A stretch of DNA of 64,000 bases, from NCBI GenBank assembly GCA_003669585.1, contig QWOQ01000017.1:1-64000 (forward strand), written 5' to 3'. The notes below the pieces were generated by a model. It was not told where the DNA came from, did no database searches, and saw only the letters and a list, made by a program, of their open reading frames with translations. Positions 6,066-53,697 of the stretch are shown piece by piece (position 1 is the first letter of the stretch; every line of letters starts with the position of its first letter). The position numbers were made by a program, and so were the translations under genes. This DNA is from Planctomycetota bacterium. GTDB taxonomy: Bacteria; Planctomycetota; Planctomycetia; Pirellulales; UBA1268.

Positions 6066-6340
6066 CTCACCTTGAGTCTCATTCGAACGTTGACTGTCGA
6101 TTTTCAAAAACTACGTAGCCCCCTACAACCGTGCAAAACGAAAATATTCGTCGAATGCTCAACTTTGCATAACAAAACGTTGCGTTCCCCCACCACAAAG
6201 GTAGAATCCAATGCGTAGGCTTGGGCGGCAGTGTGGATCGAACAATTTCGCGATTGAGTTTTTTCCGTGAGTGGATTTCTCGTTTGTTTTCGAGAATCTG
6301 TTTCTGATGGTCTGTTGGTTATTCCGAGGAGATTTTGTCG

Positions 6341-9300
6341 ATGAGTCTTAAAAAACAGGTTCATACCGTTCGATCGAGACAAAAGCAGAAAACTTTTCGC
6401 ACGCTCCTGTCGAGCGAAAGGCTTGAAGATCGGTGCATGCTCACGGCTTCCGTTGGTTCTGCGTATGATTCTGTTTCATCGACGTGGTTTGCTTCACTTT
6501 CTCACTCTGGCGGCCCCGCCTCGTCACTCGCAGTGGCAGTCAGCCAAGCTCCTTCTTCCTCGAACTCTGCTTCGGAAAACCTCAATGAATGGATCGTTCG
6601 ACTCAATTCGGAAGCGACAAAAACTATTCGTTCTGTTGCCGATGCTGCAAAAGCGTTTGCCAATGCACCGTACGGCATCCAAGTCGTAAAAGGGCTCGGC
6701 CTTACAGGGCAACTCTTACTTTCGGCAAATGCCTCTGCCGCGAAAGTTGGAGACTATCTGAAAGCGAATCCTTTGCTGGCGTATGCCGAACAAAACATGC
6801 GGGTTCAGGCACTGCAGGCAACCCCAAACGATCCCAAGTATACAAACGGTGATCTTTGGGGCCTCAATAATAGTGGCCAAAATGGCGGTGTCCCAGATGC
6901 CGACATTGATGCACCCGAGGCTTGGGATATTACTACCGGGAGTCGTTCCGTTGTGGTTGCTGTGATCGATACTGGCATCGACTACAATCATCCTGATTTA
7001 CGAGACAACATGTGGCGTAATCCCGGCGAAACACCGGGAGATAACATCGATAACGACGGCAATGGTTTCATTGACGATGTTTACGGCTGGGATTTTTATA
7101 ACAACGACGCATCCGTGTATGACAGTCCAGAAGACGATCATGGCACTCACGTCGCCGGAACCATCGCAGGCCGGGGAAATAATGAAATTGGTGTTGTGGG
7201 CGTTAATTGAGTTTCGTCCATCATGTCTATCAAATTTCTAGGCGATTTTGGCGGGACCACCAGTGGAGCCATAGCTTCTGTGAACTATGCAACCATGATG
7301 AAAGGCCGCGGAACGAATATTCGCGTTACGAGCAACAGCTGGGGCGGCGGGGGTTATAGCGAAGGACTCAAAAGCGCCATTGAAGCTGGAGGGCAAGCGA
7401 ATATCTTATTTGTTGCAGCAGCAGGAAATTCTGGAACAAACAATGATGTTATTCCTTCCTATCCCTCCGGCTATGACTCAGCATGTATTGTTTCAGTTGC
7501 GGCAACTGATAGAAATGACAAACTTGCCTCTTTTAGTCAATACGGTAAAACCAGTGTCGATATTGGTGCTCCGGGCGTGAGTATCTGGAGCACTCTTCCG
7601 GAAAATACGTATGGCTCTTACGATGGAACAAGTATGGCCACGCCGCATGTCTCCGGCGTGGCAGCGCTCGTGTTGGCGATCAATCCAACAATTAGTGTGA
7701 CCGACTTAAAGGCAGTGATTCTCGACTCTGTTGACAAGATATCAAGCCTCGCCGGTAAGACAGTGACCGGTGGCCGCCTGAATGCGTTTAAAGCACTTGA
7801 AAAAGCTCGTCCGTTTTTGAAACTTCTATCGGTGAGTCCAAGCGGAACCGTATTGCCGCCTTCCAGCGTGAGTCAAATCACGGTGCGATTCAGTGAAGAG
7901 GCTTTGGGGGCCTCGGTAGTGAAAGGGAATTTTCTGCTTGTTGGCGACGGGGATGACGGAGAATTTGGCTCTGAAACCGCTCCGGGCGATGATGTTTCAA
8001 TTTCGATAAGCGACTCGCAAATCTCTCAGGCTCTCGATGGCTCGCAAGGTGTTGTCACCATTTCTTTCAGTTCTCCACTTCTGCCGGATCGTTACCGACT
8101 CACGCTAAAAGGAACTGGAAGTAATCCACTTCGCAATGGAGCCGGGTTGCCGCTTTCAAACGGAAAAGATCTCTCGTCAATGTTTCTTATACGGGCTAAT
8201 GCAGAGGAGCCGAATGATTGGATGGACAATGCAATCAATGTCAGCAGAACCAGTGGTCGAATCGTTTTTGATGAAAATCTTGGCGACGGAGCCTATGGTT
8301 CCCGCGATGTTGATATGTTTAAAGTGACTCTTGCCCAGTCCCAGCTTTTTATTGCCGATATCGATGCGGTGCGGCTGTCCAAAACTTCCTTATTTAATAG
8401 CTACCTGAGGCTCTTTGATTCGAAAGGAAATCAGATTCTGGCCAACAACGATTTCGCCGAATCGGCTGATAGCTATCTTGAATTTCGGGCCAAAGAAGCT
8501 GGAACATACTATGTGGGCGTGTCGGGCTATGGAAACTCGTCCTATTTGGCCGTAAATGGTTTTGGAAGGCCAGGCTCCACCGGTGACTATCGACTTTCGT
8601 TGACGTTTCAGACAGTGGCCGCAACACCCTCCCCGCTGACACTCACTATCGTGAATATAACTCCCAATCCACGAACAGAGGCCGTTCCAGAGATCGTTCT
8701 GGAATTCAATCGCCCCGCCTCTGGGTTTGATATCGGTGATCTCGGTCTTACTCGCAATAATCAAACCGTCTCGCTGGTGGGAACAACGCTCGTCTCTTCC
8801 GACAACAAGCGATGGATTCTTTCCGGCCTAGCCACAAAGACATCCGATTCGGGAACATATTTTTTTACGGTAAACGTCGGTGGCAGCGGCATTCAAGATC
8901 AATTTGGATTGATGCTCTCGTCGAACGTTTCCAAGTCTTGGATAATGTCGGGCCCCGTTGTACCGCCGCCGTCGCTCGTTGCTGATTTTGGAGATGCCAT
9001 TCCGGATTCCTATAACGTGATATTTGCTTCGAATTCAAATATTCAAACGAAGTTGCTCTCCCAAAAAATTGGCGATGGAACGAATAAATCAAAAGATGTC
9101 GACATCCTCAAGTTCACGCTCTCTGTTGGCTCGCGACTAGACATTGATGTGAATGCCAGAAGTCTTTCCATACCGAGCAAGCTCGACAGCTTTGTGCGAC
9201 TTTTCGATTCGACAGGAAAGCAACTTGCTTACAACGATAACGACCGCCGAATCGGGAAAACATCTCCAGACAGCTTCCTCACATTTGAAGTGAAAACAGC

Positions 9301-9532
9301 GGGTGTTTACTACGTCGGAATTTCGGGCTCTGGAAACGCCGGGTACAATCCCGCAAAACCAGGCTCCGGGAAATCTGGTTCTTTGGGGGATTACACAGTA
9401 GAAATTTCTGTGTCGAGTGCCGCCATGACATCACCACAGGCAAGCGTTTTGCAATCGATGGCGTTCTCGCTCTGGCAGGCCTCGCAAAGCACATCATCTT
9501 CAACCCCAAAAGCGACTCGTCTCACCTTCTGA
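6341..9532 (+). pseudogene. Subtilisin-like serine protease interrupted by one in-frame TGA
   Basis: ATG at 6341 has GAGGAG upstream; a TTG two codons earlier is less likely. The frame continues to 9532 apart from TGA at 7208-7210 (codon 290), and the same frame resumes immediately. N-terminal LEPR-XLL-like LEDRCMLTA (28-36), an inhibitor-like propeptide, then the S8 triad in continuous numbering: D210 (VIDTGIDYNHPDL), H267 (DHGTHVAGT), S431 (GTSMATPHVSG). The TGA splits the domain between the His and Ser segments, after GVVGVN, where subtilases of this type have Trp (TGG), so one G-to-A change explains it. C-terminal: Ig-like domain plus two PPC-like domains (~621-757 and ~880-1023), for a total of ~1063 codons. 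Neither half would be active alone. Alternatives are a sequencing error or stop readthrough; TGA ends other genes here, so a changed genetic code is unlikely. Confidence 0.8.
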
Positions 9533-10273: not shown

Positions 10274-13200
10274 ATGCTTTCCTACCTTTTCGATCCATTT
10301 CGCTCTGGCCGAACAGACAAGTCTCGTCAATCCAAAAGACGACGACTCCTTCGGCAAACGCGATCTGATCAAGCATCCGGGCGCGGACTCTCGCTTGCAG
10401 CTACCGTCGAGCAGTTAGAAGACCGCAGGCTTTTAGCATTTCAATATCTCGGATTCAGTCACACAAATGCCACTCCCGGTCAAGATGACAACGAAGCCTA
10501 TCAGTATCATTTCGAGATTTATAACGATCCTGCAACTCCAAATCTTCCGGCTGTCATGAACATGCGGCAGTCAAATGATTTTAATACATTACAATTCGAT
10601 TACGGTACAAACTTTAGTGGCTTAGTTCCAATTAATCTTTTTAATAAAAACTGGGGATTGTCTTGCCCTCCCGCCGGCGGCAGTGCTTTAACAAACCAGA
10701 TCGGCCCGGGAACTATTTTTTCGGCGAATTCTTTTCGCGCTGCTTTGAATGGCAATTTGGATACGTTTAATCTTGCCAAAATCAAGATTACCTGTGCCCC
10801 AGGCACGGTTGACCCGTCTTTTGTCTTCCAAACTGGAGACTCACTGCCAATTGCTCTTGAAGTTGATTTTAGCGCCGCGGCTGCTGGTAGCACCTCGACT
10901 GTCTCAATAAACGCCCCAATCAGTGACACCGCATACGCTGCAACATCCTTTGCTCCAAGTCTTTGCAGTTGGATTACAAGCGTTGAGTTAAAAGCTACAC
11001 ATATTTACGTTCAGGCTGGAATTACACCGCGATATTCCAACAATTACGCGGCCACAAATCTGATTCAGATTGAAAACGCTGTAACAGGCGGTCTCACAGC
11101 TCGCGTCTCTGACGGCAACTTTGTCATTGATCCCGGGGCGAGCGTCAGCGGCAACACAACGGTGCAGCTCGGCTTAGGAGTACCCGGTAATCTAGCCACG
11201 TCAAATGCATACGGTTACGGTGGAAATGGTGGAGATATTCTTATCAATGGAGAGCTTAAGAATGCTGGAGATGTTTTTCTCCAAATCAATTCACTCGATG
11301 CTCGCAATATCAAGACTGGCGCATCGGGTTTGATTTCAGGTATAGGAACTCTTGCGCTCTACAACTTCGGAGCCGACGGTGGAACTGTTGATGTTTCAAC
11401 TGCGAATTTTCAAGCCGTGAATATTCGAGCCGGAACTGCCGGCAATCAAATTCCTGACATTGGCATTACCGTCACTCAAACTGCTGGCAATCTTGTACTG
11501 AATTCATTGCCTACGTCTCGTGGTGCGATCACATTAAAGGCGACTGCTCCAGACGCACAAATCAATATTAATGCTAACTTTGACACTCAAGCCTCACTCA
11601 CGCTCGACGCTCAGGTGCTGAATATTACTCGTCCACTCTCGACGACCGCTGGCGACATTTCTCTCCTCGGCAATACAGTGACGATCGGCAGTAATCTGAT
11701 TGCTGGAAAGTCTGGCGTTGGCAATTTAAATGTGACAAGTAAAGCCGGCGCAATCACTCTTTCAAGTGCTGCCATAATTCAAGCGCCCGGCGATCGAATT
11801 GTGATGAATGCAAAAACGAATATTGTCAGTACCGCTCGGCTCGAAGCAACAAATCTCGTGCTTACTGCCGGTGGCACTATCTCCGCAGCGTCAAGCGTTG
11901 ACACGGTCAGCGCTTCGGCAGCAGGCAGCATCACGATTGCAGACATTGACGAACTGATTGTGACCGATGCCACAACAAGTGCCGGAACTATTACCATTAG
12001 TTCAAAGGGCTCTCTCGAGGTTCTCAGCGCTTCCCATACAGGCTCCGGCAATCTTGTCTTCTCGGCAACTTCTGCAGGTCTAGCAGTCAAGGACCTTCAG
12101 ACAAAGGATGGTTCGATCCTCCTCACAACATCTTCTGGAGACATTGTCGCCAGCGGTAATCTCGTGGCAGCGGATTTGGCAAAAACTGCTGTCAATGATA
12201 TTTCCATGACTGCGACTACCGGAAACATCCTTATTCGTTCAACCGCCATTGTCACTGCGGCAGATCAATTGATTGTCTACGCACCCAGCGGTCGAATTTT
12301 TACGCCTGGTGAAGTTTCTGCCGTTACTATTCTTTCCAGTGGCTCGGGATACACCACAGCACCGAGCGTCAGTTTTAATCCTGGCGGCGGTGCTGTTACA
12401 GTACCAGTTGTTGGTGATGGGCAAATTACTAATATCAAACTGACCAGCGGTGGCTCAGGATATACTACGCCCCCAACGGTGACGTTTCAAAACGCTGGCA
12501 CTGGTGGTTCCGGAGCGACTGCCACTGCACAAGTTTCCGGGGGCGTTGTCACAGGTATTACGATCTATAATCGAGGAAGCACGTATGCAACGGCCCCCAT
12601 TCTCGTGCTCGTTGGTGGATCGGGTTCAGGTGCTCAGGCAGTTGCCTCGGTAAGTGGATTGACGGCTATCACCGTTAATAATCCTGGCAGCGGTTATCAG
12701 GTGCCGCCTCAGGTTGTTATTTCAACCGGAGAGGGTGCCGGTTCTGCCGCTGTGAGCACTAATTCGCTCGGACAAATCACGAAGATCAATATTTCCGAAA
12801 TCGGGAATGGCTTCGATGTTCCCCCAACTGTTACTATTTCTGATTCAAGTGGTTCGGGATTTGGAGCAAGTGCAGTTGCCACTCTTACCGGAGGCATCAC
12901 ATCCGCGACTGTAGGAACTGGTGGCACGGGATACTCTGGTGCAACAACAGTCACTTTTGGTGCAGCTTCTGTCGGCGGAACAACCGCGACCGGAACGGCA
13001 ACTCTTGGTATTACACAAGCTTCCATTGAGCCAATTGTCGGAGCTGCTGGTGGGCAGTACTACCGCGTTGGCGACCTCCTTGAGGTTGTAGCGGGCTCCG
13101 GCTCACAGTTTCTAATCGATAATTCATCTGCCGGCAGTGTCACCAGCGTGAGCGTACGAAATGGCGGACAAAACTACACAGCAGGCGACACTCTCTACTT

Positions 13201-16200
13201 AAATGGCAGTGCGGGAAGTGGACTACGGCTTATTGTAGGTTCTGTCTCTGCCGGTGGTGTCATTGTATCTGCCAGTGTCATTCCACTCTTTGGCGGCACC
13301 GGATTTGCAAATGGGAACATTCTCAATCACGTCGGCGGCATTGGCGGACGAGTTCAGGTGACCGGAGTTACCACACCTACGACCGGCGGAGCCATCACGA
13401 GCTTGCAAGTGATTGCCGCTGGTTCTGGCTACACAAATAGACCCACCGGGGTCTTGGGTGGAAGTGGAAACTCATCCTTTATTTCTTTTAATGATACCGC
13501 CTATAGTGTGACGGGTGTCAATATTACATCGCCTGGTCGCGGCTACCCGGTCTCCTCTCCCACGGTAACCTTTTCTCCAACCACAGGCACTGCGGCAACG
13601 GCTTCTGCGTTTGTGAGCAACGTGGTTGATGTGATAACAGTCGTCAACTCTGGCCAAGGCTATAATTTAGCAACAACCGTCGTTGATTTGACCGCCGTAG
13701 CACTTGGTGGTGGTGCATCTTCTGGTCCGGTGAGCGTGAACGGACTTGGTGAAATCACGACAATCAACCTTTCTCTCCCCGGGGGAGGCTATACTGCTGC
13801 CCCAGCAGTTACAATTCTTGATGCAAGTCGTTCGGGTTCTGGAGCGACTGCAACAGCAAATCTTTCTGGCGGTGTCACAGAACTTGTTCTGACAAGCGGG
13901 GGCTCGGGATATTCGCAGACTTTGACTACAGTAACATTGAGCGCACCTGCTGGCGGTGGAGTGACGGCAACTGCAGAAGCGGTGGTGGGATCAACTGGTG
14001 CCACTCTTGGTGTTATTCAAAGCCTTCGTATTATAACACCCGGAAGTGGATACCTTCTCGGCGAGTCTGTCGGGATCACAATTTCTGCCCCTGGCACGGC
14101 GTCAGGTGCAACTGCAACTGCAGGCATCTCAAATGTCGTTACAGGATTTACACTGACGAGTTCAGGTTCTGGCTATAATCCAAGCACAACAACTGTTTTG
14201 GTTCGTTCGGTGGGCAACGGGGCAACTGCAACTGTAAATCTCACTGGTGGCGTCACTGCAATAGAGGTTCTCTCGGGAGGATCTGGCTATACAACAACCC
14301 TCGTGACTCTCGCTGCACCGGCAGCGGGCGGTGTTCGGGCGACGGCGACGGCCGTTGTAGCGGCCGGAGAAATTACTGGTTTTACAATAACAAATCCGGG
14401 TTCTGGATATGCCCGAGACGAATCGCCTGTTGTTACTATTACCGGCGGTGATGGTCTCGCGGATGGGGAATCTCATGTCTCGAATGTCATAGGGAGCCTG
14501 AGAATTACCAATTCTGGGGCTGGTTATGATACTGCCCATGCTCCAACGGTTCGCCTTGTACCATTTGGTGCTCAGGCGGCTGCGACATCCGAGATTGGAA
14601 GTGGTTCGCTGACTGGAATTACAATAGCCGACGGTGGCGCTGGATACGAAACGGCTCCATTGATTTCGATTGATCCACCTTCCAGCGGAACGACTGCCGA
14701 AGCCGTTGCGACAATTCTCGCGGGAGTTGTCATAAGCATTACGATCACCAACCCCGGGTCTGGGTATACCTCAACACCAAATATCAGCTTTGAAGGTGGT
14801 GGAGGCAGTAGCGCAAGCGCAGCGGCCTTGATCAGTGGAGTGAATAATGTTTTGATCACCAATCCTGGCGTCTTCTATGCAGTTCCGCCGACGGTCACCT
14901 TTTCATCACCCACAGTAGTCGGAGGGACTTCTGCTACAGGTGTGGCAGAACTCACTGGAACGGCTCAAATTTCTGCTGGCCGCTTACGTTGGACGGCTCT
15001 TGAACAGCCACTCGACTCGATTTTAAGCACGTTTTCCAGAGCCGCCATCTTTCTAACGGGTGAAGGCGATCTGATCATCGATCGACAGTCAGGCGATCTC
15101 ATTCTTGAAGGAGCATCGACCCTCAATGGCTCGATTTTTGTTACTGCACAGAAACTCACTCTCACGGGAGCGATAACAGCTGGTGATTCAAATTCGACAC
15201 GAACTGAAGATATTACACTTGCTGCTCTAGGCGGCGACCTCATTGTCGATGCTGCAATAACCGCTCCACGAACAGTCACACTTCTTGCTGAATCTGGAAA
15301 GATTACGGCGACAAATCTTGCGGCTGTCGGTCTGATAACGACCAACAATATTGTATTGTCTGCGTTCTCCGGAGCCACGATACGGTCAAATGTGCAGACA
15401 GTTCGAGGCGTTGTCTCTGAAGAGAACTCTCCTCTTACAATCACCGAGACGGATGATCTGCTCGCTGGAACTGATCTGGGCGATCTTCTTTCAACTAATG
15501 GAGTTATTACGATTACTGTCGGCGGTCTCTTGACTGTGGGTCGAATCGATGCAGGCTCACAAGGGACCGTTTCTCTCACGGCGAGTTCCAATATTGTACA
15601 GGGCACGGTCGATAACGAACCTGACATTGTTTCCGGAACTGCGAATTTGATTTCGACAGCAGGTAAGATCGATATCGACACCGACGTCGATTCTGTTTCA
15701 GCGACAGCGCCTCTGTCAACAATCGATCTGGACAACACCGGATCACGGTCTCTGACGCTTGCAACAATTCAGGCTCGAAACAACATTCGAGTCGAATCTG
15801 TTGGGCCAATGTCTGCCGTTGCTGTTGGGTCTACTCTTGGTCAAATCTTTCTGACGACAACCGGTACAGACACGGCCGCTCCGAGTAACATTCTTGTTGG
15901 CGATGTCAAAGCGCCTGTCGGTGTTGCAACCATTGTCTCTACCGGACGAGTTGGCTCGAATGATCCATTGGCTCTGAGCATCGATGTGACGGCAACGACT
16001 GCCCGCATTGCAGCTGCGATGGACATTGCTCTGCGAACAAAATTGAATTCCATTTCTGCCAAAGCCGGTACCGGGATTACGATCTCTGAATTTGATGCGA
16101 TCACGTTAGGAGAAGCCGCTGGACCGGCCGGCTGGAATACGGTGAAAAGTAATAACGGCGATATTACTTTTTCTGCCGGTGGCTCCATGAATGCTTTCAG

Positions 16201-19200
16201 TGTTGATGCTTCATCGAGTGGCCTCGATGTCGGTGGTAGCGTTTTCCTGAAGAACACCGTCGGCGACATCACTCTTGGGAACATTCTGGCAGAAACCAAG
16301 AACGGAACTGTTTCAATTCAGGCCTTTGGCTCCATTAACGATACCGACGCGGCCGTCGATATTACGGCACAAAGTGCTCTGCTTTACGCACAAACCGGTG
16401 GGATAGGAGCAGCCAGCGACCGACTCGATCTGAGCGTTGATGCGATTTTTGCCAATGCCATCAGTGACGTTCAAATTGTAAATTCTGGCAAGTCAACGGT
16501 TACTCTTTCGGGTATCGCAGCGCTCGGTGGCGATATTAATATCGCTGTTAGTGGAAGTGCCGTGATTGCGGGTCCCATTTCGGCATACGGTGCGGTGATT
16601 GGTTTTACTCCAGTTGTGAATGGTGCCGGATACAGCCAAGCAAATCCGCCATCCGTTACGATCACACCGTCAAACATTGCTGATCAAGTAACGCGATTTC
16701 AAATCGATCAGATCACTGCCGGAGGAACTGGTTATACCGCAGCACCACTGGTTACTTTTACACCAGCTCCTACCGGCGGCACGACGGCGACTGCAAATGC
16801 GGTGATCAGCGGAGGTCGCGTCGTTGGCCTGATTATTACAAATCCGGGCTCCGGATACACAGTCGCGCCTTCGATTACATTGACACCGGCCGCTGGCGAC
16901 ATGACAGGCACGGGAGCAATGGCCACTGCGTTCATCGGTGGAACTCAGGCCACCGCCACGGCCAACGTGAATTCTGCAGGTCGTGTTTCAGGACTCACTT
17001 CCACAAATACCGGTTCTGGTTATACCTCGGTACCAATTGTTACAATTGCCCCCGGAACTCCCACCGCCTCCGCGATTGCAACACTCGGCAAAGGAACGGT
17101 GTCTCTCTCTTCCAACGGAAACGTCACTCAGTCTCAACCCATCACAGCAAAAAGCTTCTCTCTGGTTTCAACACTTGGCACCGTTACCCTTGAGAATGCG
17201 AATAACGACGTCGATTCCCTCGCCATTACCAATGGTAATCGAGCTATTGCATTCACTGACAAAGATGATCTCGCGATCGGTGTCGGTGCTGCAGGTATCA
17301 CGGCCGGAGCAACGGTGTTGAAGGTCGGCGGAAACCTAACGCAGACTCAAGCGATTGTTGCTTCATCGCTCGATATCACCGCCACGGCAGGCACTGTCAC
17401 TCTTGATTCTATCGCCAATAACACTGGGTCTCTCGCTGTTCGAAATTCACAGTCAGGTCAGATAATCGGTGTCACTACAATCGTAGGTGGCTCGGGATAC
17501 ATAGTTGCACCAACAGTCACTTTCGGTGCGGCGCCTGCCGGCGGCGTAACGGCCACAGGAGTTGCTGTATTGGGCACCGGCTTACTAACAGGCCAAGTGA
17601 TCGGCATTACCATAACGAACTCAGGTTCCGGCTACGTTACAACTCCAACTATCACAATCAGTGCGGCTCCTGCTAGTGGAACAAATGCTTCAGCCACTGC
17701 CGTACTCGGCACAAAGCGTGGTATCGCGTTTACAAATTCCTCGGCTTTGTCGATCGGTGTCGGTGCTGCAGGCATCACGGCCGGAGCAACGGTGTTGAAG
17801 GTCGGCGGAAACCTAACGCAGACTCAAGCGATTGTTGCTTCATCGCTTGATATCACCGCCACGGCAGGCACTGTCACTCTTACGAATAGTGCCAACGATG
17901 TTGATTCAATTGCTGTTGTTAATATCGGACGGGCCGTTTCGTTCACTGACCAAGATGATCTCGCGATCGGTGTCGGTGCTGCAGGTATCACGGCCGGATC
18001 AACGGTGTTAAAGGTTGGTAGTTTTTTGACCCAAACTAAAGTGATTCTTGCCACGTCCCTCGATATCAGCACCACTTCGGGCGCGGTTGTGCTCGATTCC
18101 GACAATAACGTTACAACTCTAGCCTTCACGAATTCTCAATTTGGACAGGTTGCAAGCGTATCGGTGAGCAGTGGTTCAGGATACGCAGTTGCACCAACAG
18201 TCACTTTTGGTGCAGCGCCTGTCGGTGGCACAACCGCAACAGGAGTTGCCGTATTGGGCACCGGTCTACAGACAGGCCGAGTGATTAGCGTCACTATAAC
18301 GAACCCAGGGTCTGGTTATATTACATCCCCAAATATTACATTCAGTGCGGCCCCCGCGGGCGGAACAACCGCCACTGGTGTTGCAGTACTGAGCGGAAAC
18401 ATCTCTTTTAACAATGTTTCAGGTTTGTCAATCGGTGTTGGCAACACAGGAATCACAGCCCGAGATACAGCGCTAGTAGTCGGTGGGAATTTAACACAGA
18501 CAAAAGCAATTTCCGCCACGTCACTAAGCATCTATGCTACGGCTGGCACGATTTCCCTCAGTTCTGCTACCAATAAAGTTGCAACGCTGGGTATCGTAAA
18601 CTCTCAGCTTGGTCAGGTTGCAAGCGTATCGGTGAGCAGTGGCTCCGGATACACAGTTGCACCAACAGTCAACTTCGGTGCGGCGCCTGCCGGTGGCACA
18701 ACCGCAATCGGGGTTGCAGTACTGGGCACCGGAGTACAGGTAGGCCAAGTGATCGGCATTACCATAACGAACCCAGGTTCCGGCTACGTTATAGCTCCAA
18801 CTATCACAATAAGTGCGGCTCCCGCGGGCGGAACAAATGCTTCAGCAACTGCCGTTCTCGGCACAAAGCGTGACATTGCGTTTACAAATTCCTCAGCTTT
18901 GTCAATCGGTGTCGGAACCTCTGGAATCGCTGGAAAAGATGTCGTCCTTTCTGTGGGCGGAAATCTTTCGCAGACAGTTGCCCTTGAGGCCGATTCGCTC
19001 GCGGTCACCAACTCCACAGGCTCCGTCGTACTTGATGCTGCTTTCAATGATGTTGCTTCGCTTGCTGTTAGCAATGGCAATCGGCAGGTGTCGTTTACTG
19101 ACAAAAATACCCTTTCCATCGGTGTGGGTTCTGTAGGTATTGTCGGTGGTGGAGTCGATAACGTAGTCATTCGTTCTGTTGGCACACTCACGGTGAATCA

Positions 19201-22200
19201 ATCAGTGACGTCCGGCACTGTGGCCGATAATGATGGCAATATCTTGCTTGTTTCCGAGAATGGTGACATTCAAATCAATGCAAATCTAACTGCACAAAAT
19301 GACACTATCACACTGGAGGCGAAAAACGGCAATATCTCGCAGTCTAAATCATCAACCATTGATTGTGAAACTTTGGTTTGGTGGTCAAAAACTACTCCCA
19401 CTTTTTCTGGAACGCTTACAAACACAATTATTGCCCCGAATATTACCGGCAAGGGTGATATTTTTCTTCCCGGGCCAAACTCAACTGATCACTATCCGGG
19501 CATTCTTACAGTTGCCGGTGCTACCACCGCAGATGGAATTATTATCATTGATGCCGACGGTGTGAACATTACGGGTTTGATTAGCGCCAACACCGTTACT
19601 GTCTATGCAAGAACAAACAACATTTCTTTCACCGATTCTGGTGAAATTCAGACTCCATTCACATTCAATGGATCAGTGCTCTTGTCTGCAGCTCAAAATA
19701 TTATCGACGCTCATGTCGGTACTGATATTACTACCGCATCGGCAAGTCTTACCGCAGCGGCAGGCTCGATCGGATCAGCACTCGATTCGCTCGACTTGAG
19801 CATCAACACCATCACAAGCGCGGCTGCGGCAACGGGTGTTTATCTGACCAATAACAAGGCTGTTGCACTTTCAAGCGTCTCATCAACAACTGGGGATGTA
19901 TTTGTAACTGCCGCTGGAACACTCACTGCCACAAGCGTCATAGCAACTGCAGGAAATGTCAACTTGACTGCAAGTGGAGCCACAAGCGACATCGTGGCAG
20001 GATCAGTCATTGCCAGTTCCACAACCGGAATCGCAGCGCTCTTGGCTGGGCGTTCAATCACCGATGGTGATGGAAATGTCGACATCACCGCCGCATCGGC
20101 AAGTCTTACCGCAACCGCAGGCTCGATCGGATCAGCAGCAGATTCGCTCGATCTGAGCGTCGATGCCGTCACAAACGCCGCTGCGGCAACGGGTGTTTAT
20201 CTGACAAACGACAAGGCTGTTTTGCTCCCGAGCGTCTCGTCAACAACTGGGAATGTCGATATTCGAACGACTGCAGGGAGCATTGCTGTTGGAGCCATCA
20301 CAGCAACTCCAGGCGTTGTCACACTCGTCGCTGCAGCATCTATCACCGATGGTGATGCACTGGTCGACATCACTGCAGCATCGGCAAGTCTTACCGCAGC
20401 GGCAGGCTCGATCGGATCATTAGCAGATTCGCTCGACTTGAGCGTCAATGCCGTCACAAACGCCGCTGCGACAACGGGTGTTTATCTGACCAATAATAAG
20501 GCAGTTGCACTTTCGAGCGTCTCGTCAACAACTGGGAATGTCGATATTCGAACGACCGCAGGGAGCATTGCTGTTGGAGCCATCACAGCAACCCCAGGCG
20601 TTGTCACGCTCGTCGCTGCAGCATCAATCACCGATGGTGATGCACTGGTCGACATCACTGCAGCATCGGCAAGTCTTACTGCAGCGGCAGGCTCGATCGG
20701 ATCATTAGCAGATTCGCTCGACCTGAGCGTCAACACCATCACAAAAGCTGCTGCAACAACGGGTGTTTATCTGACCAATAATAAGGCTGTTGCACTTTCA
20801 AGCGTCTCGTCAACAACTGGGAATGTCGATATTCGAACGACCGCAGGGAACATTGCTGTTGGAGCCATCACAGCAACCCCAGGCGTTGTCACGCTCGTCG
20901 CTGCAGCATCAATTACCGATGGTGATGCGCTGCTCGACATCACCGCCGCATCGGCAAGCCTTACTGCAACGGCAGGCTCGATCGGATCAGCAGCAGATTC
21001 GCTCGACTTGAGCGTCAACACCATCACAAAAGCTGCTGCGGCAACGGGTGTTTATCTGACAAACGACAAGGCTGTTGCACTTTCAAGCGTCTCGTCAACA
21101 ACTGGGAATGTATTTGTGACTGCCGCTGGAATACTCACTGCCACAAGCGTCGTAGCAACTGGGGGAAATGTTAGCTTGACTGCAAGTGGAGCCACAAGCG
21201 ATATCGTGGCAGGATCAGTCATTGCCAGTTCCACAACCGGAATCGCATTGCTCTTGGCTGGGCGTTCTATCACCGATGGTGATGCGCTCGTCGACATTAC
21301 CGCCGCATCGGCAAGTCTTACTGCAACGGCAGGCTCGATCGGATCAGCAGCAGATTCGCTCGACTTGAGCGTCAACACTGTCACAAGCGCCGCCGCGGCA
21401 ACGGGTGTTTATCTGACCAACGACAAGGCTGTTGCACTTTCAAGCGTCTCGTCAACAACTGGGAATGTATTTGTAACTGCTGCTGGAATACTCACTGCGA
21501 CAAGCGTCGTAGCAACTGCGGGAAATGTCAGCTTGACTGCAAGTGGAGCCACAAGCGATATCGTGGCAGGATCGATCATTGCCAGTTCCACAACCGGAAT
21601 TGCAACGCTCTTGGCTGGGCGTTCTATCACCGATGGTGATGCGCTAGTCGACATCACCGCCGCATCGGCAAGTCTTACCGCAACGGCAGGCTCGATCGGA
21701 TCAGCAACAGATTCGCTCGACTTGAGCGTCAACACCATCACAAACGCCGCTGCGGCAACGGGTGTTTATCTGACGAATAACAAAGTAACGCTTGTTAGCA
21801 GCGCCACTGCCACAACAGGGGCGATTGTTCTTTCCACGCCATTTGCGGTAACCGTGAATCAGATGCAAGCAAATGGTACTGGTGGTAGCGTAACGATCGC
21901 AGCAACCAATCTTGTCGTTGGTCCGGTTGCGACGCCGACTCCACTTTTGAAGACGAGTGGTGTTGCTAATTTAACGAGCGTCACCGGTGTCGTTTCACTT
22001 GAAAATGGTGGAATGATTGTTGCAACCGGTGGCATCACGCTCAAGCCAAACGGAGCTATCAACTGGGTTGTCAATACAAATCCGACCGGCCCCGGGTCGC
22101 TGAACGCGGTCATCACTGCGGTGAACGCCACAGGAAGTCCGGCAACGATTTCGCTGCCGAGTAACACAACCCTGATTCTTCCGTCAGTGCTGCCAGCAGT

Positions 22201-22687
22201 GACCGTGCCGATCAATTTTCGAGGCACAAATCTTATTATCAATGGTTCAAGCATTGCTTCGACCACCGCGATCGGTCTTCAGTTACTCGCCGGCGCAAGC
22301 GGAAGCGTGATCTCAGGAGTTACATTTACTGGTTTTCGCGGAACTGGAGTATCGCTGATCGGTACGCAGAATACAGCGATTTCAAATATTGTCGTGAACG
22401 GTGGCTCTACAGGAATTGCTGTTTCTGGAACGCTCACTGGCTCAAGCGTGCGTGGCAGCACGTTTAACAATAATTCTACTGGGATCAGCTTAGTTTCAGC
22501 CGTAGGCATCACGGTCGGGGGAACGCTGGCTGGTCAGGCCAATACGATCAACGGAGCGATCACCGTCGGCGTATTCGCCAGCGGATTCTGCACCAACTCT
22601 TCCGTTGTCAAGACAGTATTTGTGAACGTGCCGACGGCCAAGCAATACAACGTAACTGGTTCGCGGTATCTGACAGTCATTCAGTAG
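10274..22687 (+). CDS. Giant 4137-residue repeat surface protein with LEPR-XLL N-terminus
   Basis: ATG with a well-spaced GGAAGG. Basic N-terminus, then LEDRRLLAF (48-56). A unique N-terminal domain (~55-270) is followed by beta-solenoid-like sequence, a long run of GSGY/PTVTF repeats (about 40-45 residues each, ~680-1570, recurring at ~2110-2270 and later), modules of the type SIGVGAAGITAG...GGNLTQT (~2320-2980), a seven-unit array of 95/119-residue repeats (~3155-3840), and a C-terminal beta-helix module starting near NPTGPGSL. The last residues (GVFASGFCTNS, YNVTGSRYLTVIQ) match the end of the gene at 1-2184. Almost free of Cys, rich in G/T/A/S/V. Likely an exported giant adhesin or cell-surface filament protein; no enzymatic motif seen. 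Repeat homology suggests recombination-driven length change. Confidence 0.85.
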   Translation: MLSYLFDPFRSGRTDKSRQSKRRRLLRQTRSDQASGRGLSLAATVEQLEDRRLLAFQYLGFSHTNATPGQDDNEAYQYHFEIYNDPATPNLPAVMNMRQSNDFNTLQFDYGTNFSGLVPINLFNKNWGLSCPPAGGSALTNQIGPGTIFSANSFRAALNGNLDTFNLAKIKITCAPGTVDPSFVFQTGDSLPIALEVDFSAAAAGSTSTVSINAPISDTAYAATSFAPSLCSWITSVELKATHIYVQAGITPRYSNNYAATNLIQIENAVTGGLTARVSDGNFVIDPGASVSGNTTVQLGLGVPGNLATSNAYGYGGNGGDILINGELKNAGDVFLQINSLDARNIKTGASGLISGIGTLALYNFGADGGTVDVSTANFQAVNIRAGTAGNQIPDIGITVTQTAGNLVLNSLPTSRGAITLKATAPDAQININANFDTQASLTLDAQVLNITRPLSTTAGDISLLGNTVTIGSNLIAGKSGVGNLNVTSKAGAITLSSAAIIQAPGDRIVMNAKTNIVSTARLEATNLVLTAGGTISAASSVDTVSASAAGSITIADIDELIVTDATTSAGTITISSKGSLEVLSASHTGSGNLVFSATSAGLAVKDLQTKDGSILLTTSSGDIVASGNLVAADLAKTAVNDISMTATTGNILIRSTAIVTAADQLIVYAPSGRIFTPGEVSAVTILSSGSGYTTAPSVSFNPGGGAVTVPVVGDGQITNIKLTSGGSGYTTPPTVTFQNAGTGGSGATATAQVSGGVVTGITIYNRGSTYATAPILVLVGGSGSGAQAVASVSGLTAITVNNPGSGYQVPPQVVISTGEGAGSAAVSTNSLGQITKINISEIGNGFDVPPTVTISDSSGSGFGASAVATLTGGITSATVGTGGTGYSGATTVTFGAASVGGTTATGTATLGITQASIEPIVGAAGGQYYRVGDLLEVVAGSGSQFLIDNSSAGSVTSVSVRNGGQNYTAGDTLYLNGSAGSGLRLIVGSVSAGGVIVSASVIPLFGGTGFANGNILNHVGGIGGRVQVTGVTTPTTGGAITSLQVIAAGSGYTNRPTGVLGGSGNSSFISFNDTAYSVTGVNITSPGRGYPVSSPTVTFSPTTGTAATASAFVSNVVDVITVVNSGQGYNLATTVVDLTAVALGGGASSGPVSVNGLGEITTINLSLPGGGYTAAPAVTILDASRSGSGATATANLSGGVTELVLTSGGSGYSQTLTTVTLSAPAGGGVTATAEAVVGSTGATLGVIQSLRIITPGSGYLLGESVGITISAPGTASGATATAGISNVVTGFTLTSSGSGYNPSTTTVLVRSVGNGATATVNLTGGVTAIEVLSGGSGYTTTLVTLAAPAAGGVRATATAVVAAGEITGFTITNPGSGYARDESPVVTITGGDGLADGESHVSNVIGSLRITNSGAGYDTAHAPTVRLVPFGAQAAATSEIGSGSLTGITIADGGAGYETAPLISIDPPSSGTTAEAVATILAGVVISITITNPGSGYTSTPNISFEGGGGSSASAAALISGVNNVLITNPGVFYAVPPTVTFSSPTVVGGTSATGVAELTGTAQISAGRLRWTALEQPLDSILSTFSRAAIFLTGEGDLIIDRQSGDLILEGASTLNGSIFVTAQKLTLTGAITAGDSNSTRTEDITLAALGGDLIVDAAITAPRTVTLLAESGKITATNLAAVGLITTNNIVLSAFSGATIRSNVQTVRGVVSEENSPLTITETDDLLAGTDLGDLLSTNGVITITVGGLLTVGRIDAGSQGTVSLTASSNIVQGTVDNEPDIVSGTANLISTAGKIDIDTDVDSVSATAPLSTIDLDNTGSRSLTLATIQARNNIRVESVGPMSAVAVGSTLGQIFLTTTGTDTAAPSNILVGDVKAPVGVATIVSTGRVGSNDPLALSIDVTATTARIAAAMDIALRTKLNSISAKAGTGITISEFDAITLGEAAGPAGWNTVKSNNGDITFSAGGSMNAFSVDASSSGLDVGGSVFLKNTVGDITLGNILAETKNGTVSIQAFGSINDTDAAVDITAQSALLYAQTGGIGAASDRLDLSVDAIFANAISDVQIVNSGKSTVTLSGIAALGGDINIAVSGSAVIAGPISAYGAVIGFTPVVNGAGYSQANPPSVTITPSNIADQVTRFQIDQITAGGTGYTAAPLVTFTPAPTGGTTATANAVISGGRVVGLIITNPGSGYTVAPSITLTPAAGDMTGTGAMATAFIGGTQATATANVNSAGRVSGLTSTNTGSGYTSVPIVTIAPGTPTASAIATLGKGTVSLSSNGNVTQSQPITAKSFSLVSTLGTVTLENANNDVDSLAITNGNRAIAFTDKDDLAIGVGAAGITAGATVLKVGGNLTQTQAIVASSLDITATAGTVTLDSIANNTGSLAVRNSQSGQIIGVTTIVGGSGYIVAPTVTFGAAPAGGVTATGVAVLGTGLLTGQVIGITITNSGSGYVTTPTITISAAPASGTNASATAVLGTKRGIAFTNSSALSIGVGAAGITAGATVLKVGGNLTQTQAIVASSLDITATAGTVTLTNSANDVDSIAVVNIGRAVSFTDQDDLAIGVGAAGITAGSTVLKVGSFLTQTKVILATSLDISTTSGAVVLDSDNNVTTLAFTNSQFGQVASVSVSSGSGYAVAPTVTFGAAPVGGTTATGVAVLGTGLQTGRVISVTITNPGSGYITSPNITFSAAPAGGTTATGVAVLSGNISFNNVSGLSIGVGNTGITARDTALVVGGNLTQTKAISATSLSIYATAGTISLSSATNKVATLGIVNSQLGQVASVSVSSGSGYTVAPTVNFGAAPAGGTTAIGVAVLGTGVQVGQVIGITITNPGSGYVIAPTITISAAPAGGTNASATAVLGTKRDIAFTNSSALSIGVGTSGIAGKDVVLSVGGNLSQTVALEADSLAVTNSTGSVVLDAAFNDVASLAVSNGNRQVSFTDKNTLSIGVGSVGIVGGGVDNVVIRSVGTLTVNQSVTSGTVADNDGNILLVSENGDIQINANLTAQNDTITLEAKNGNISQSKSSTIDCETLVWWSKTTPTFSGTLTNTIIAPNITGKGDIFLPGPNSTDHYPGILTVAGATTADGIIIIDADGVNITGLISANTVTVYARTNNISFTDSGEIQTPFTFNGSVLLSAAQNIIDAHVGTDITTASASLTAAAGSIGSALDSLDLSINTITSAAAATGVYLTNNKAVALSSVSSTTGDVFVTAAGTLTATSVIATAGNVNLTASGATSDIVAGSVIASSTTGIAALLAGRSITDGDGNVDITAASASLTATAGSIGSAADSLDLSVDAVTNAAAATGVYLTNDKAVLLPSVSSTTGNVDIRTTAGSIAVGAITATPGVVTLVAAASITDGDALVDITAASASLTAAAGSIGSLADSLDLSVNAVTNAAATTGVYLTNNKAVALSSVSSTTGNVDIRTTAGSIAVGAITATPGVVTLVAAASITDGDALVDITAASASLTAAAGSIGSLADSLDLSVNTITKAAATTGVYLTNNKAVALSSVSSTTGNVDIRTTAGNIAVGAITATPGVVTLVAAASITDGDALLDITAASASLTATAGSIGSAADSLDLSVNTITKAAAATGVYLTNDKAVALSSVSSTTGNVFVTAAGILTATSVVATGGNVSLTASGATSDIVAGSVIASSTTGIALLLAGRSITDGDALVDITAASASLTATAGSIGSAADSLDLSVNTVTSAAAATGVYLTNDKAVALSSVSSTTGNVFVTAAGILTATSVVATAGNVSLTASGATSDIVAGSIIASSTTGIATLLAGRSITDGDALVDITAASASLTATAGSIGSATDSLDLSVNTITNAAAATGVYLTNNKVTLVSSATATTGAIVLSTPFAVTVNQMQANGTGGSVTIAATNLVVGPVATPTPLLKTSGVANLTSVTGVVSLENGGMIVATGGITLKPNGAINWVVNTNPTGPGSLNAVITAVNATGSPATISLPSNTTLILPSVLPAVTVPINFRGTNLIINGSSIASTTAIGLQLLAGASGSVISGVTFTGFRGTGVSLIGTQNTAISNIVVNGGSTGIAVSGTLTGSSVRGSTFNNNSTGISLVSAVGITVGGTLAGQANTINGAITVGVFASGFCTNSSVVKTVFVNVPTAKQYNVTGSRYLTVIQ
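12320..14980 (+). repeat. Coding GSGY / PTVTF repeat tract
   Basis: Degenerate 40-45-codon repeats inside the giant gene. Each has a GSGYxxxPxVTF-like strand, a G/A/T-rich linker (ATATA, GGTTATG) and an ITNPGSGY-like return. Well over fifteen copies occur here, and further copies are interspersed at about 16.6-17.1, 17.46-17.71, 18.15-18.39 and 18.62-18.87 kb. The periodicity suggests a beta-solenoid or stacked beta-hairpin fibre. Confidence 0.75.
17274..17881 (+). repeat. Near-identical 131-bp repeat pair in the giant gene
   Basis: Bases 17274-17404 and 17751-17881 match at all but two positions that I could find (caggta/caggca and gctcga/gcttga). They encode the same module around GITAGATVLKVGGNLTQT. 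A third, diverged copy begins near 17974. The near-identity at DNA level points to recent duplication or gene conversion. Confidence 0.8.
19735..21790 (+). repeat. Tandem array built from two interchangeable coding cassettes
   Basis: The anchor encoding GVYLTN recurs at 19835, 20192, 20477, 20762, 21047, 21404 and 21761, so successive units are 357, 285, 285, 285, 357 and 357 bp (119 or 95 codons). Units share the flanks SITDGD...ASASLTA.AGSIGS..DSLDLSV and KAVALSSVSSTTGN. They differ only in the middle: a short cassette (DIRTTAGSIAVGAITATPG...) or one 24 codons longer (FVTAAGTLTATSV...SDIVAGS). Order: long, short, short, short, long, long. All units keep frame. Confidence 0.9.
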
Positions 22688-49812: not shown

Positions 49813-52800
49813 CTAGAACAGACGTCTCACCGTCTGCGGCTTGTTGTCGAGTCCGATCGCCGTAAAAGCCACCTCGCGAGGCGTCTGCCAGGCCGCGATC
49901 ACCGCCTGGGCCTGCCCGCCCAACTGGCGCTGGTAGGTGGCGGCAAAATCCACGGCACCGCCACGGGCCCCGAAGGGACGAAACGTCGCCACGGGCATGG
50001 CGGGCTCTTCGGCGCTGCTGTTCTCCATCGCAGCCATGCCTGACATGGAGTGGCTTTCCGTGGAGCAACCGCAGATGTCTTCCATGTTCCATACGCTCAC
50101 AGTACCAACATTTAATCCTGCTTCCGGGGTCGTGATCAGGTTCGGCTTGTAGCTAGGCACCGTCGAGGGTGCCACGAAGCCGACGGCCACCTTGACGCCA
50201 TCGAGGCTTCCGCCTGGGGCGGTGAACGTAAAGCACTTCTCCGGATCGGCGACACCGTTGACGATGTCACGGCCACTCAGCGCGGTGATGATCGCCTCCC
50301 GGCCAGCCCCCGCAGAGACGATGACGTCGTCGTAGTTGTCGCCGTCCACGTCACCGACGGCCACGTTCACGCCGTTAGGAAAACTGCCTGGCAGCACGCC
50401 CTTGAACTCCCGGACCAGCGTGCCCTTGGTGTCAAAAAGACGGACATTGGCGGCGCCGGCGGTGCGGGAGCCGACGACGATATTCACGGTGCCATAGGGG
50501 CCAAGCGCCCCCACCGCCAGGCTCACACCGCTGGTCTCGCCTGCGAAGGCACTGAATTCGGCGGATGGCACCAGCAAGCCGTTCTCATAGACCTTCACAC
50601 CCGAGTCCTGTGACCCCTTGCCGACGGCCATCGTCTGCTTGGTGTATTTCGCCCTGAAGTAGGCATTGATCTGCTCGGCAGTCCCAGCGAAGGGTGGCGC
50701 CTGTGGTGCTGGCTCGGTCGATGTGCCAATGCCGGAGGCCGTCACCACGGGGCCTTGGTAACCGGGGAAAGGCGTGATGGTGCCGACCTCGTTGCCCTTG
50801 CCATTGAGGACGAGCGTCGACTGAGACGTTGTTCCCAGCCCCAGCCGCAGGCCCTCTGTGTTGCCGAACTGGAAAACCGGCGACATCATTCCCTCGTCTT
50901 CATGCTCGAGGATGTGGCAGTGGAAGACGTACTTTCCCGGGAAGTCGAGCACCCGGAATCGAATGGTGATACTGCCAAACGCCGGCACCATGCGCACGTC
51001 GTACGGCGATACATAGTTTGCGGCATTGGCATTCGGGAACGTCATGTCGGGATCAATCGGGAAACCGTTGATCTTCGTGACGATGAACACACCCTGGTGG
51101 ATGTGAAACGGATGGTTGAGCGGGCCGGCATTGAGGATCGTCCACTCCTCGACCGTCCCGATCTCAAGCTGGGGCATGACCCCTTCGCCAAACTTCTTGC
51201 CGTTGACATAGAAGTTGTCGATGTTGATGACCCCGCCATCCTCCACCTGAGCCAACTGTTCCAGCGAGAACACGCGAGTGACATCCGGCGTCTCCTTCCA
51301 GAGAGGATCTGCCTCCTGAGGGGCAAACACCGGTGCCGCGGTGGTGACGGGATCTCCTTCCACGACGAGGGTCGCCAGCACGTAGTAGTAGCCAGTGCCG
51401 CTTGCGTTGAGTCGCGCCTCTTCGCCGCCCCATCCATCCATAAAATAGTAGGTGCCGGGCGTCGTGGGGGCGGTCACCGCCATCGACATCCGGTTGCCTG
51501 GGCTGAGCACGGTGAGCGCGGAGATGTCGTTCATCCGTAGTTCACTGGCGCTGAGCGTCACGTTGTACGGGTGGATGAATGCGCTGGCACCGTCGTTAGA
51601 GAGAATCGTGGCATTCCAAGGGTTCTGCAAATTGTCGTCGGCGATGACAAAGTTCGTAGCGCCGCGGGCGCCGAACTGGCCCATGTTAAAGACCTGCGTC
51701 TCGCCGGGGCGGACGCGGATGATCGGATTCATCTGGCCGTTGACCCGCTTCTGCCAGCCTGTGGTGTAGCCGTCACCATAATAATCGCTGCTGTCAGTAC
51801 CAGTCATCATTTTATACTGGCCCTCGACGGAGATATTGACCTCCGAGAAAACCAGGTTCACCTGCTTGAGTTCGTCCTTGTACTGTGGCCACGGCTCAAG
51901 TGGGTTGCCGACCATGATCATGCCGGCCAAACCACCCTCAACCTGCGGCTTGGTCTCCTCGTGCACGTGCGGGTGATACCAGTTGACACCTACGCTATTT
52001 TCGTAGGTGGAGATCGGAATGCTAATCTCTGACGTTTCGCCTGGCTCGATGTGGACATAGACATTATCCGCCGCGCTCAGGTCGGGCGCGTGCGAACCGT
52101 GGTAGTGGAAATTGGTCCCAAAGACCGGATTGGAGGGATCGTGGCCAACGGCAAGATTATTTGTGAGGTGAAGATTGAGCGTGTCGCCGCTATTTATCTG
52201 CAGCATCGTGCCCGGAAAGCCCGCCGGGTACGACGTGCCGTAGGCGTCGAACTGGTATGCCATGGCGTAGGAGTTGTAGTCACGGTCATCATCCGGGAGG
52301 CTGCTGTAGACTTGCTGTCCGCCGTAGAGGATCGGATCGGATGCAAAGCCCGCCGTGACCATCTTCACGTTGGCCTCAAGCACGCCGTTTTGGCTCCTGA
52401 TCACGTCCAACGGCCGCAGATCTGTCTGCTGGAATTGAAATCCATCCATAGGAAAAATGACGTTTTCCGCCGCTATCCCCAATGTTACCGGTGCGGAGTT
52501 CGCCGATGGCAGACTGTTGCCGACGGCGTTCTTAGCGATAACTTTGATCAGATACGTTGTGCCGCTGGTCAGACCCGTGACGTTGCATGAGAGAGCTGTC
52601 GATACAGGATCGGAGAACGTTGTCCACGACGAACCACCCGTGCTCGAATACTTCACCTGATAGTCGGTGATTGCCGAGCCGCCGTTGCTGACAGGAGCGG
52701 TCCACCTTACGGCGATGCTTTTGTTGCCGCTGACGGCCACGACCGATGTCGGACTGCCGGGCACGGTGGCGACGACCGGTGTAACCGGTGCTGAATTCGA

Positions 52801-53697
52801 CGACGGCCGGCTGATGCCAACGGCGTTCTTAGCGATCACTTTGATCACATAGCTTGTGCCGTTGGGCAGGCCCGTGACGGTGCATGAGGTCGCTGTGATT
52901 GGCGAGCCTGTATTGAACCGCGTCCATGACCCCGCAACACCGTTGTTGCTCGAATACTTCACCAGATATTCGGTGATCGGCATTTCGCCGTTGCTGGCAG
53001 GAGCGTTCCACGTCACGGCCAGTTGGGTGTTGCCGCGGACGGCTACTACGCCTGTCGGCTTGCCGGGCACGGTGGCGGCGGCCGGTGTAACAACCAGTGC
53101 TGAATACGACGTCGGACTGCCGGGCACGGTGGCGGCCGGTGTAACCGGTGCTGAATTCGACGACGGCAGGCTGATGCCAACGGCGTTCTTAGCGATCACT
53201 TTAATCACATAGCTTGTGCCGTTGGGCAGGTCCGTGACGGTGCATGAGGTCGCTGTGATTGGCGAGCCTGTCCTATACCGCGTCCATGACCCCGCAACAC
53301 CGTTGTTGCTCGAATACTTCACCAGATATTCGGTGATTGCCGAGCTGCCGGTGCTGGCAGGAGCGGCCCACGTCACATCTAGTTGCGTGTTGCGGCTGAT
53401 GGCTACTACCGCTGTCGGACTGGTGGGCACTGCGGCCAGAATACCGATCGTGTTTTGTGAAACGAATGCCGCGATGTTTGAGTTGTCATTGGCCGAACTG
53501 GCAGACGAGCCACTCGACGCATGATTCACTGACATCATCTGCCGTGGCTCCAGCGACTCAAGGGAAATCCGCTGGGCGTGCCGCTTTGAGCGACGGCGAC
53601 GAGTGGAAACTCCACGAGAATAGAAAACGTTCGTAAACGTTTTTTGAAATGCCCTTTGAAATGCTGCAGCTGGCGAGTTGGATGGCGGCATCGACAT
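49813..53697 (-). CDS. LEPR-XLL multicopper oxidase with FN3 repeats and FG-GAP-like tail
   Basis: 1294 residues; AAGGA eight bases before the ATG. The basic N-terminus has a true LEPR motif (SLEPRQMMSV, to ~57). Three fibronectin III repeats follow (~90-405), two nearly identical in DNA. Cupredoxin domains then carry all copper motifs: HYH (H531, H533), HPHVH (H575, H577, H579), HPFHIH (H862, H865, H867) and HCHILEH (H926, C927, H928, H932) with axial M937. The C-terminal ~300 residues have an integrin/FG-GAP-like VAVGDVDGDNYDDVIV calcium loop. Exported laccase or copper/phenol oxidase type; substrate unknown. Visibly GC-richer than flanking chromosomal genes, in keeping with island origin. 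Confidence 0.9.
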   Translation of the reverse strand: MSMPPSNSPAAAFQRAFQKTFTNVFYSRGVSTRRRRSKRHAQRISLESLEPRQMMSVNHASSGSSASSANDNSNIAAFVSQNTIGILAAVPTSPTAVVAISRNTQLDVTWAAPASTGSSAITEYLVKYSSNNGVAGSWTRYRTGSPITATSCTVTDLPNGTSYVIKVIAKNAVGISLPSSNSAPVTPAATVPGSPTSYSALVVTPAAATVPGKPTGVVAVRGNTQLAVTWNAPASNGEMPITEYLVKYSSNNGVAGSWTRFNTGSPITATSCTVTGLPNGTSYVIKVIAKNAVGISRPSSNSAPVTPVVATVPGSPTSVVAVSGNKSIAVRWTAPVSNGGSAITDYQVKYSSTGGSSWTTFSDPVSTALSCNVTGLTSGTTYLIKVIAKNAVGNSLPSANSAPVTLGIAAENVIFPMDGFQFQQTDLRPLDVIRSQNGVLEANVKMVTAGFASDPILYGGQQVYSSLPDDDRDYNSYAMAYQFDAYGTSYPAGFPGTMLQINSGDTLNLHLTNNLAVGHDPSNPVFGTNFHYHGSHAPDLSAADNVYVHIEPGETSEISIPISTYENSVGVNWYHPHVHEETKPQVEGGLAGMIMVGNPLEPWPQYKDELKQVNLVFSEVNISVEGQYKMMTGTDSSDYYGDGYTTGWQKRVNGQMNPIIRVRPGETQVFNMGQFGARGATNFVIADDNLQNPWNATILSNDGASAFIHPYNVTLSASELRMNDISALTVLSPGNRMSMAVTAPTTPGTYYFMDGWGGEEARLNASGTGYYYVLATLVVEGDPVTTAAPVFAPQEADPLWKETPDVTRVFSLEQLAQVEDGGVINIDNFYVNGKKFGEGVMPQLEIGTVEEWTILNAGPLNHPFHIHQGVFIVTKINGFPIDPDMTFPNANAANYVSPYDVRMVPAFGSITIRFRVLDFPGKYVFHCHILEHEDEGMMSPVFQFGNTEGLRLGLGTTSQSTLVLNGKGNEVGTITPFPGYQGPVVTASGIGTSTEPAPQAPPFAGTAEQINAYFRAKYTKQTMAVGKGSQDSGVKVYENGLLVPSAEFSAFAGETSGVSLAVGALGPYGTVNIVVGSRTAGAANVRLFDTKGTLVREFKGVLPGSFPNGVNVAVGDVDGDNYDDVIVSAGAGREAIITALSGRDIVNGVADPEKCFTFTAPGGSLDGVKVAVGFVAPSTVPSYKPNLITTPEAGLNVGTVSVWNMEDICGCSTESHSMSGMAAMENSSAEEPAMPVATFRPFGARGGAVDFAATYQRQLGGQAQAVIAAWQTPREVAFTAIGLDNKPQTVRRLF

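Follow-up and report, generated by a model that had tools for sequence, protein, structure and literature searches.

The six-unit tandem array of long and short units in the gene for a giant, 4137-aa protein of a freshwater planctomycete probably arose when a stalk module with a beta-solenoid fold, part of an exported protein, was amplified in tandem in one lineage, with the long unit as the ancestral form and the short unit as a form that has lost about one rung of the solenoid. The DNA analysed (the window) covers 64 kb at the start of a contig of 478 kb, from a draft genome of 4.27 Mb in 18 contigs. The argument draws on the anatomy of the array, on single-copy orthologues, on divergence among units and on structure prediction.

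Anatomy of the array and its host gene

The boundaries of the units were anchored on the DSLDLS motif. The host gene and its relevant features, given in window coordinates, are:

10274-22687, + strand: open reading frame of the giant repeat protein, 4137 aa, with an open frame, an export motif and long homologues in sister genera
16049-16639, + strand: a single, diverged module copy whose place is colinear with that of the sole copy in orthologues
17273-19327, + strand: another array of long and short units within this gene, 159, 71, 155, 158 and 71 aa in length, followed by a diverged end unit
about 19721-19783, + strand: partial linker opening the six-unit array (TDITTASASLTAAAGSIGSAL)
19784-20140, + strand: unit L1, long, 119 aa / 357 bp
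20141-20425, + strand: unit S1, short, 95 aa / 285 bp
20426-20710, + strand: unit S2, short, 95 aa / 285 bp
20711-20995, + strand: unit S3, short, 95 aa / 285 bp
20996-21352, + strand: unit L2, long, 119 aa / 357 bp
21353-21709, + strand: unit L3, long, 119 aa / 357 bp
21710 to about 21784, + strand: partial linker closing the array
21785-22684, + strand: C-terminal region, matched in 29 of the 72 family genomes, the host's own counted

The six units thus delimited span 19784-21709 in the order L-S-S-S-L-L, every one of them in frame, and the unit lengths, order, retained frame and location reported in a first-pass annotation of this DNA are all confirmed, the lengths and order exactly. The array is real and far above chance: its TRF scores are 1703 and 1552, against a maximum of 51 among 30 codon-shuffled versions of the gene. 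Draft assemblies, such as this one of 18 contigs, often contain errors in repeats, and a repeat collapsed or expanded during assembly was therefore considered; such an artefact is very improbable, since the units differ throughout, the longest exact repeat (63 bp) is below usual read lengths and the frame is open across all 4137 codons.

The N-terminus of the protein carries a planctomycete export-type motif, LEDRRLL (residues 48-54), and the Pfam model Planc_extracel (PF07595) also matches there, at residues 44-55, with 12.2 bits, under its cut-off of 25.5. The protein is probably exported and surface-exposed. Since no Pfam or NCBIfam model passed its cut-off against the whole protein, a role as an adhesin or stalk is one that we infer; no adhesive domain was recognised with either collection, nor did either match a TPS secretion domain at the N-terminus, where the LEDRRLL motif sits instead. 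A PADLOC scan of the protein, a promoter scan upstream of the gene and a sequence search of the array region against solved structures returned nothing, nothing and nothing meaningful, respectively. What stands of the earlier description as a surface-protein array is a giant, probably exported repeat protein with an array enlarged by in-frame tandem duplication.

Three side observations concern other parts of the window. The C-terminal region is also present in a truncated paralogue at the start of the contig (window 1-2184), which contains a 210-bp tandem array at 133-844 (3.4 copies, 89% matches). A subtilase (Peptidase_S8) frame at 6335-9532 is split by an in-frame stop codon (7208-7210) that has half of the domain on each side; the stop is either a real break or a sequencing error. 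At 52483-53115, a 306-bp tandem repeat (2.1 copies) lies in a predicted multicopper oxidase/FN3 protein (ORF 49813-53697, - strand).

Origin of the module and of its two forms

With the array as query, eight of 72 family genomes matched, the host genome included; in the genomes searched, the host's genus was represented by the host alone. The module is single copy in orthologues from sister genera: the linker motif occurs once each in L009, L010, L012, L026 and L027. In L011, which shares its record with L040, the motif has changed (GSIGAVDAPIQL) within a region that is still colinear. L012, which ends at a contig edge, and G017, for which the match is weak, are less informative. In the host gene itself, the diverged copy at 16049-16639 is the presumed ancestor of the six-unit array. 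Colinearity between the L011 and host proteins covers residues 1-2105 and resumes at the C-terminus; the stretch between these two blocks, 873 aa in L011 and about 1730 aa in the host protein, thus differs greatly in length.

No array of this module was found in family relatives within a 297-genome sample of the order, and a GTDB scan with the unit alignment detected no relative; two to four weak module matches were found in a few genomes, for example the more distant G279, G170 and G299, and G004 within the family. A second GTDB scan, this time using the protein's conserved middle, recovered six MAG loci (five planctomycete MAGs and one labelled Kuenenia), and isolate names suggest that several of these relatives come from lakes and reservoirs. 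Homologous giant genes in L029, L030 and L032 have their own tandem arrays with periods of 204-207 bp, some with higher-order periods of 414 bp or 612 bp; arrays of this kind were absent from L009, L010, L011, L026 and L027. While the C-terminal region is kept in the 29 family genomes counted above, arrays vary between species. Given the single-copy orthologues, the colinear diverged copy, the absence of a family array and the longer stretch relative to L011, the six-unit array is most readily understood as an extra stretch amplified in this lineage, so far known from the host genome alone.

The relation between the two unit forms was examined against the single-copy contexts of orthologues. 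Aligned with the context in L037, the long cassette needs no gap over 59 aa (score 96, versus 27.6 +/- 7.2 for shuffles); it fits that of L035 almost as well, and for this reason looks ancestral. The short cassette aligns with these contexts (L037 and L035) only across a large gap and with weak scores of 27.5 and 24.0 (p about 0.04-0.05), and more clearly with the diverged copy in its own gene. The short unit is 24 aa shorter than the long unit, and the simplest reading of the alignments would be that the long unit is ancestral and that the short form lost these 24 aa. The best alignment of the short cassette moves with the partner chosen, making the identity of the absent rung ambiguous.

An origin of the two cassettes from separate sources, each inserted into a common scaffold as proposed for DDxP proteins, would account for short and long middles that are hard to align as DNA, and the long form of the upstream array does clearly hold an added segment. 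Yet the middles align with a score of 44.8, above shuffles at 26.8 +/- 5.9, and the short cassette retains a weak, detectable match to the orthologue context; the colinearity of the long cassette with the context in orthologues shows that it was not inserted, and no target-site duplication was noticed. Separate origins are accordingly unlikely. The first-pass annotation had described two interchangeable cassettes, and although their difference in length is borne out, their middles are not unrelated: a better description is one module with or without about one extra rung.

Structure prediction is consistent with this description. An AlphaFold2 model of the segment from S3 through L2 to half of L3, built on a 10-row alignment, is all-beta without helix (pLDDT 91.6, pTM 0.88), and the first strands of successive turns are about 20-24 residues apart. 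By our own reading of the strand list of this model, L2 is predicted to have one turn more than S3, and we infer that the 24-aa difference corresponds to about one rung of a predicted beta-solenoid. These values are to be read with the reported tendency of AlphaFold2 to assign undue confidence to beta-solenoid models of repeats (PMC11795689); the model from a single sequence was poor and unusable (pLDDT 41.6). A Foldseek search of the 10-row model against the PDB found nothing significant, with EtpA as the best match (E=3.4).

In the proposed amplification, the ancestral long module would have contained two rungs between conserved linkers, and the short unit would have been derived from it by loss of about one rung (24 aa). 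If every rung completes one turn of the coil by itself and keeps the frame, units of both lengths would fit in any order with the solenoid unbroken, and both forms could therefore have persisted during growth. Linkers may have driven this growth through slippage or unequal crossing-over, which would probably have given a longer stalk with a varied surface and thereby a changed reach or binding area.

Divergence and possible exchange between units

Pairwise comparison of the 204-nt linkers from the five internal junctions shows 11-30 differing sites (5-15%), corresponding to identities of 85-95%, with dS values of 0.15-0.35, and the longest exact repeat anywhere in the array is the 63-bp match noted above. 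The flanks had been called identical or nearly identical in the first-pass annotation, which these values contradict. The same annotation had proposed that the array is built to vary in length or antigenicity and had itself singled out synonymous divergence as evidence against it; dS of 0.15-0.35 between linkers is such divergence, and it argues against recent homogenisation of the units. An antigenic role in particular has no basis, the named relatives with the gene being environmental MAGs. The copies are too far drifted to resemble a rapidly switching variation device, and recent or ongoing length or antigenic variation of the array is possible but unsupported.

Among units, 5.6% of sites differ between cassettes of the same type, 9.0% between linkers of same-type units and 11.1% between linkers of unlike units, so that divergence between cassettes of one type does not exceed that between linkers. 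Greater divergence of linkers than of cassettes was significant for short units only (p=0.016); with p=0.86 for long units, it is not claimed as a general feature. Linker distance was significantly related neither to unit position (p=0.38) nor to cassette type (p=0.10).

Shared linker variants are clustered according to the Sawyer sum-of-squares test (p=0.001 on nucleotides, p=0.006 on codons), and a 42-bp patch is common to S1 and L2, which are of unlike cassette type. Restricted to synonymous codons (17 characters), the test shows no clustering (p=0.62), for which reason the evidence for old exchange between units is moderate at best; a neighbour incompatibility test on the linkers was likewise not significant (p=0.29).

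The long units of the upstream array at 17273-19327 carry an added SGSGY-type segment. Its first long and first short units share a flank of 131 bp (17274-17404 versus 17751-17881) with two mismatches and a longest exact match of 74 bp, after which the units diverge. The upstream array is the better place to seek recent exchange.

This shared flank, the clustered variants common to S1 and L2, and the tandem in-frame arrangement with exact repeats of up to 63 bp are what would be expected if recombination between linkers still altered the number and order of units within a population, in a periscope-like manner. Such active variation of length or cassettes is nevertheless unlikely for the six-unit array, given linkers that have diverged by 5-15% with dS of 0.15-0.35, and known periscope proteins in which the greatest length variation accompanies the highest repeat identity (PMC8201768). 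Quite doubtful, too, is a more elaborate proposal whereby stalk length would be tuned in steps of one solenoid turn, long and short units being exchanged via their shared linkers, with the upstream array behaving likewise with a different insert. The lineage-specific amplification set out above is preferred to both.

Comparison with known systems

Periscope proteins, including SasG, Rib, Sgo_0707 and CdrA (PMC8201768), form a surface stalk from similar, tandem in-frame units whose number sets its length, and this stalk projects a functional domain; the 4137-aa protein, as a putative surface protein of tandem in-frame units, may work like a periscope stalk. They are composed mostly of globular domains, with very high DNA identity between repeats and copy-number change at the level of strains, whereas the units of the host array are predicted solenoid turns and, in place of highly identical tandem DNA repeats, have linkers of 85-95% identity and exact repeats no longer than 63 bp.

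EtpA and other beta-helical adhesins of two-partner secretion (PMC11463764) are long, exported and made of tandem modules that form one unbroken beta-helix, an organisation that the host protein, long and probably exported, is predicted to resemble. The modules of EtpA are 228 aa in length, and sequence and fold searches link the host array to it without significance. Adhesins of this kind (FHA, EtpA, HxuA) possess an N-terminal TPS domain, in contrast to the host protein, in which none was recognised.

A combination of short and long module types in giant proteins, with homologues that lack the repeats, is known from DDxP proteins (PMC7730722). Those proteins have modules with a terminal DDxP, whose insertion is attributed to endonuclease cuts, whereas the long and short units of the host array look like one module with and without a rung, and the DDxP motif is absent from the unit sequences. 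No record of a long/short array differing by a rung was found in the literature searched.

The huge proteins of Planctomycetota (PMC11573180) share with the host protein a planctomycete origin, very large size and construction from repeats. The array is ordinary in kind and unusual in detail. Because a module that relatives have once has been amplified in one lineage, with its diverged copy still visible and one form shorter by about a turn of the predicted coil, growth can be traced step by step, and the array provides, rather than a new variation system, a concrete case of how the giant stalk proteins of planctomycetes may grow.
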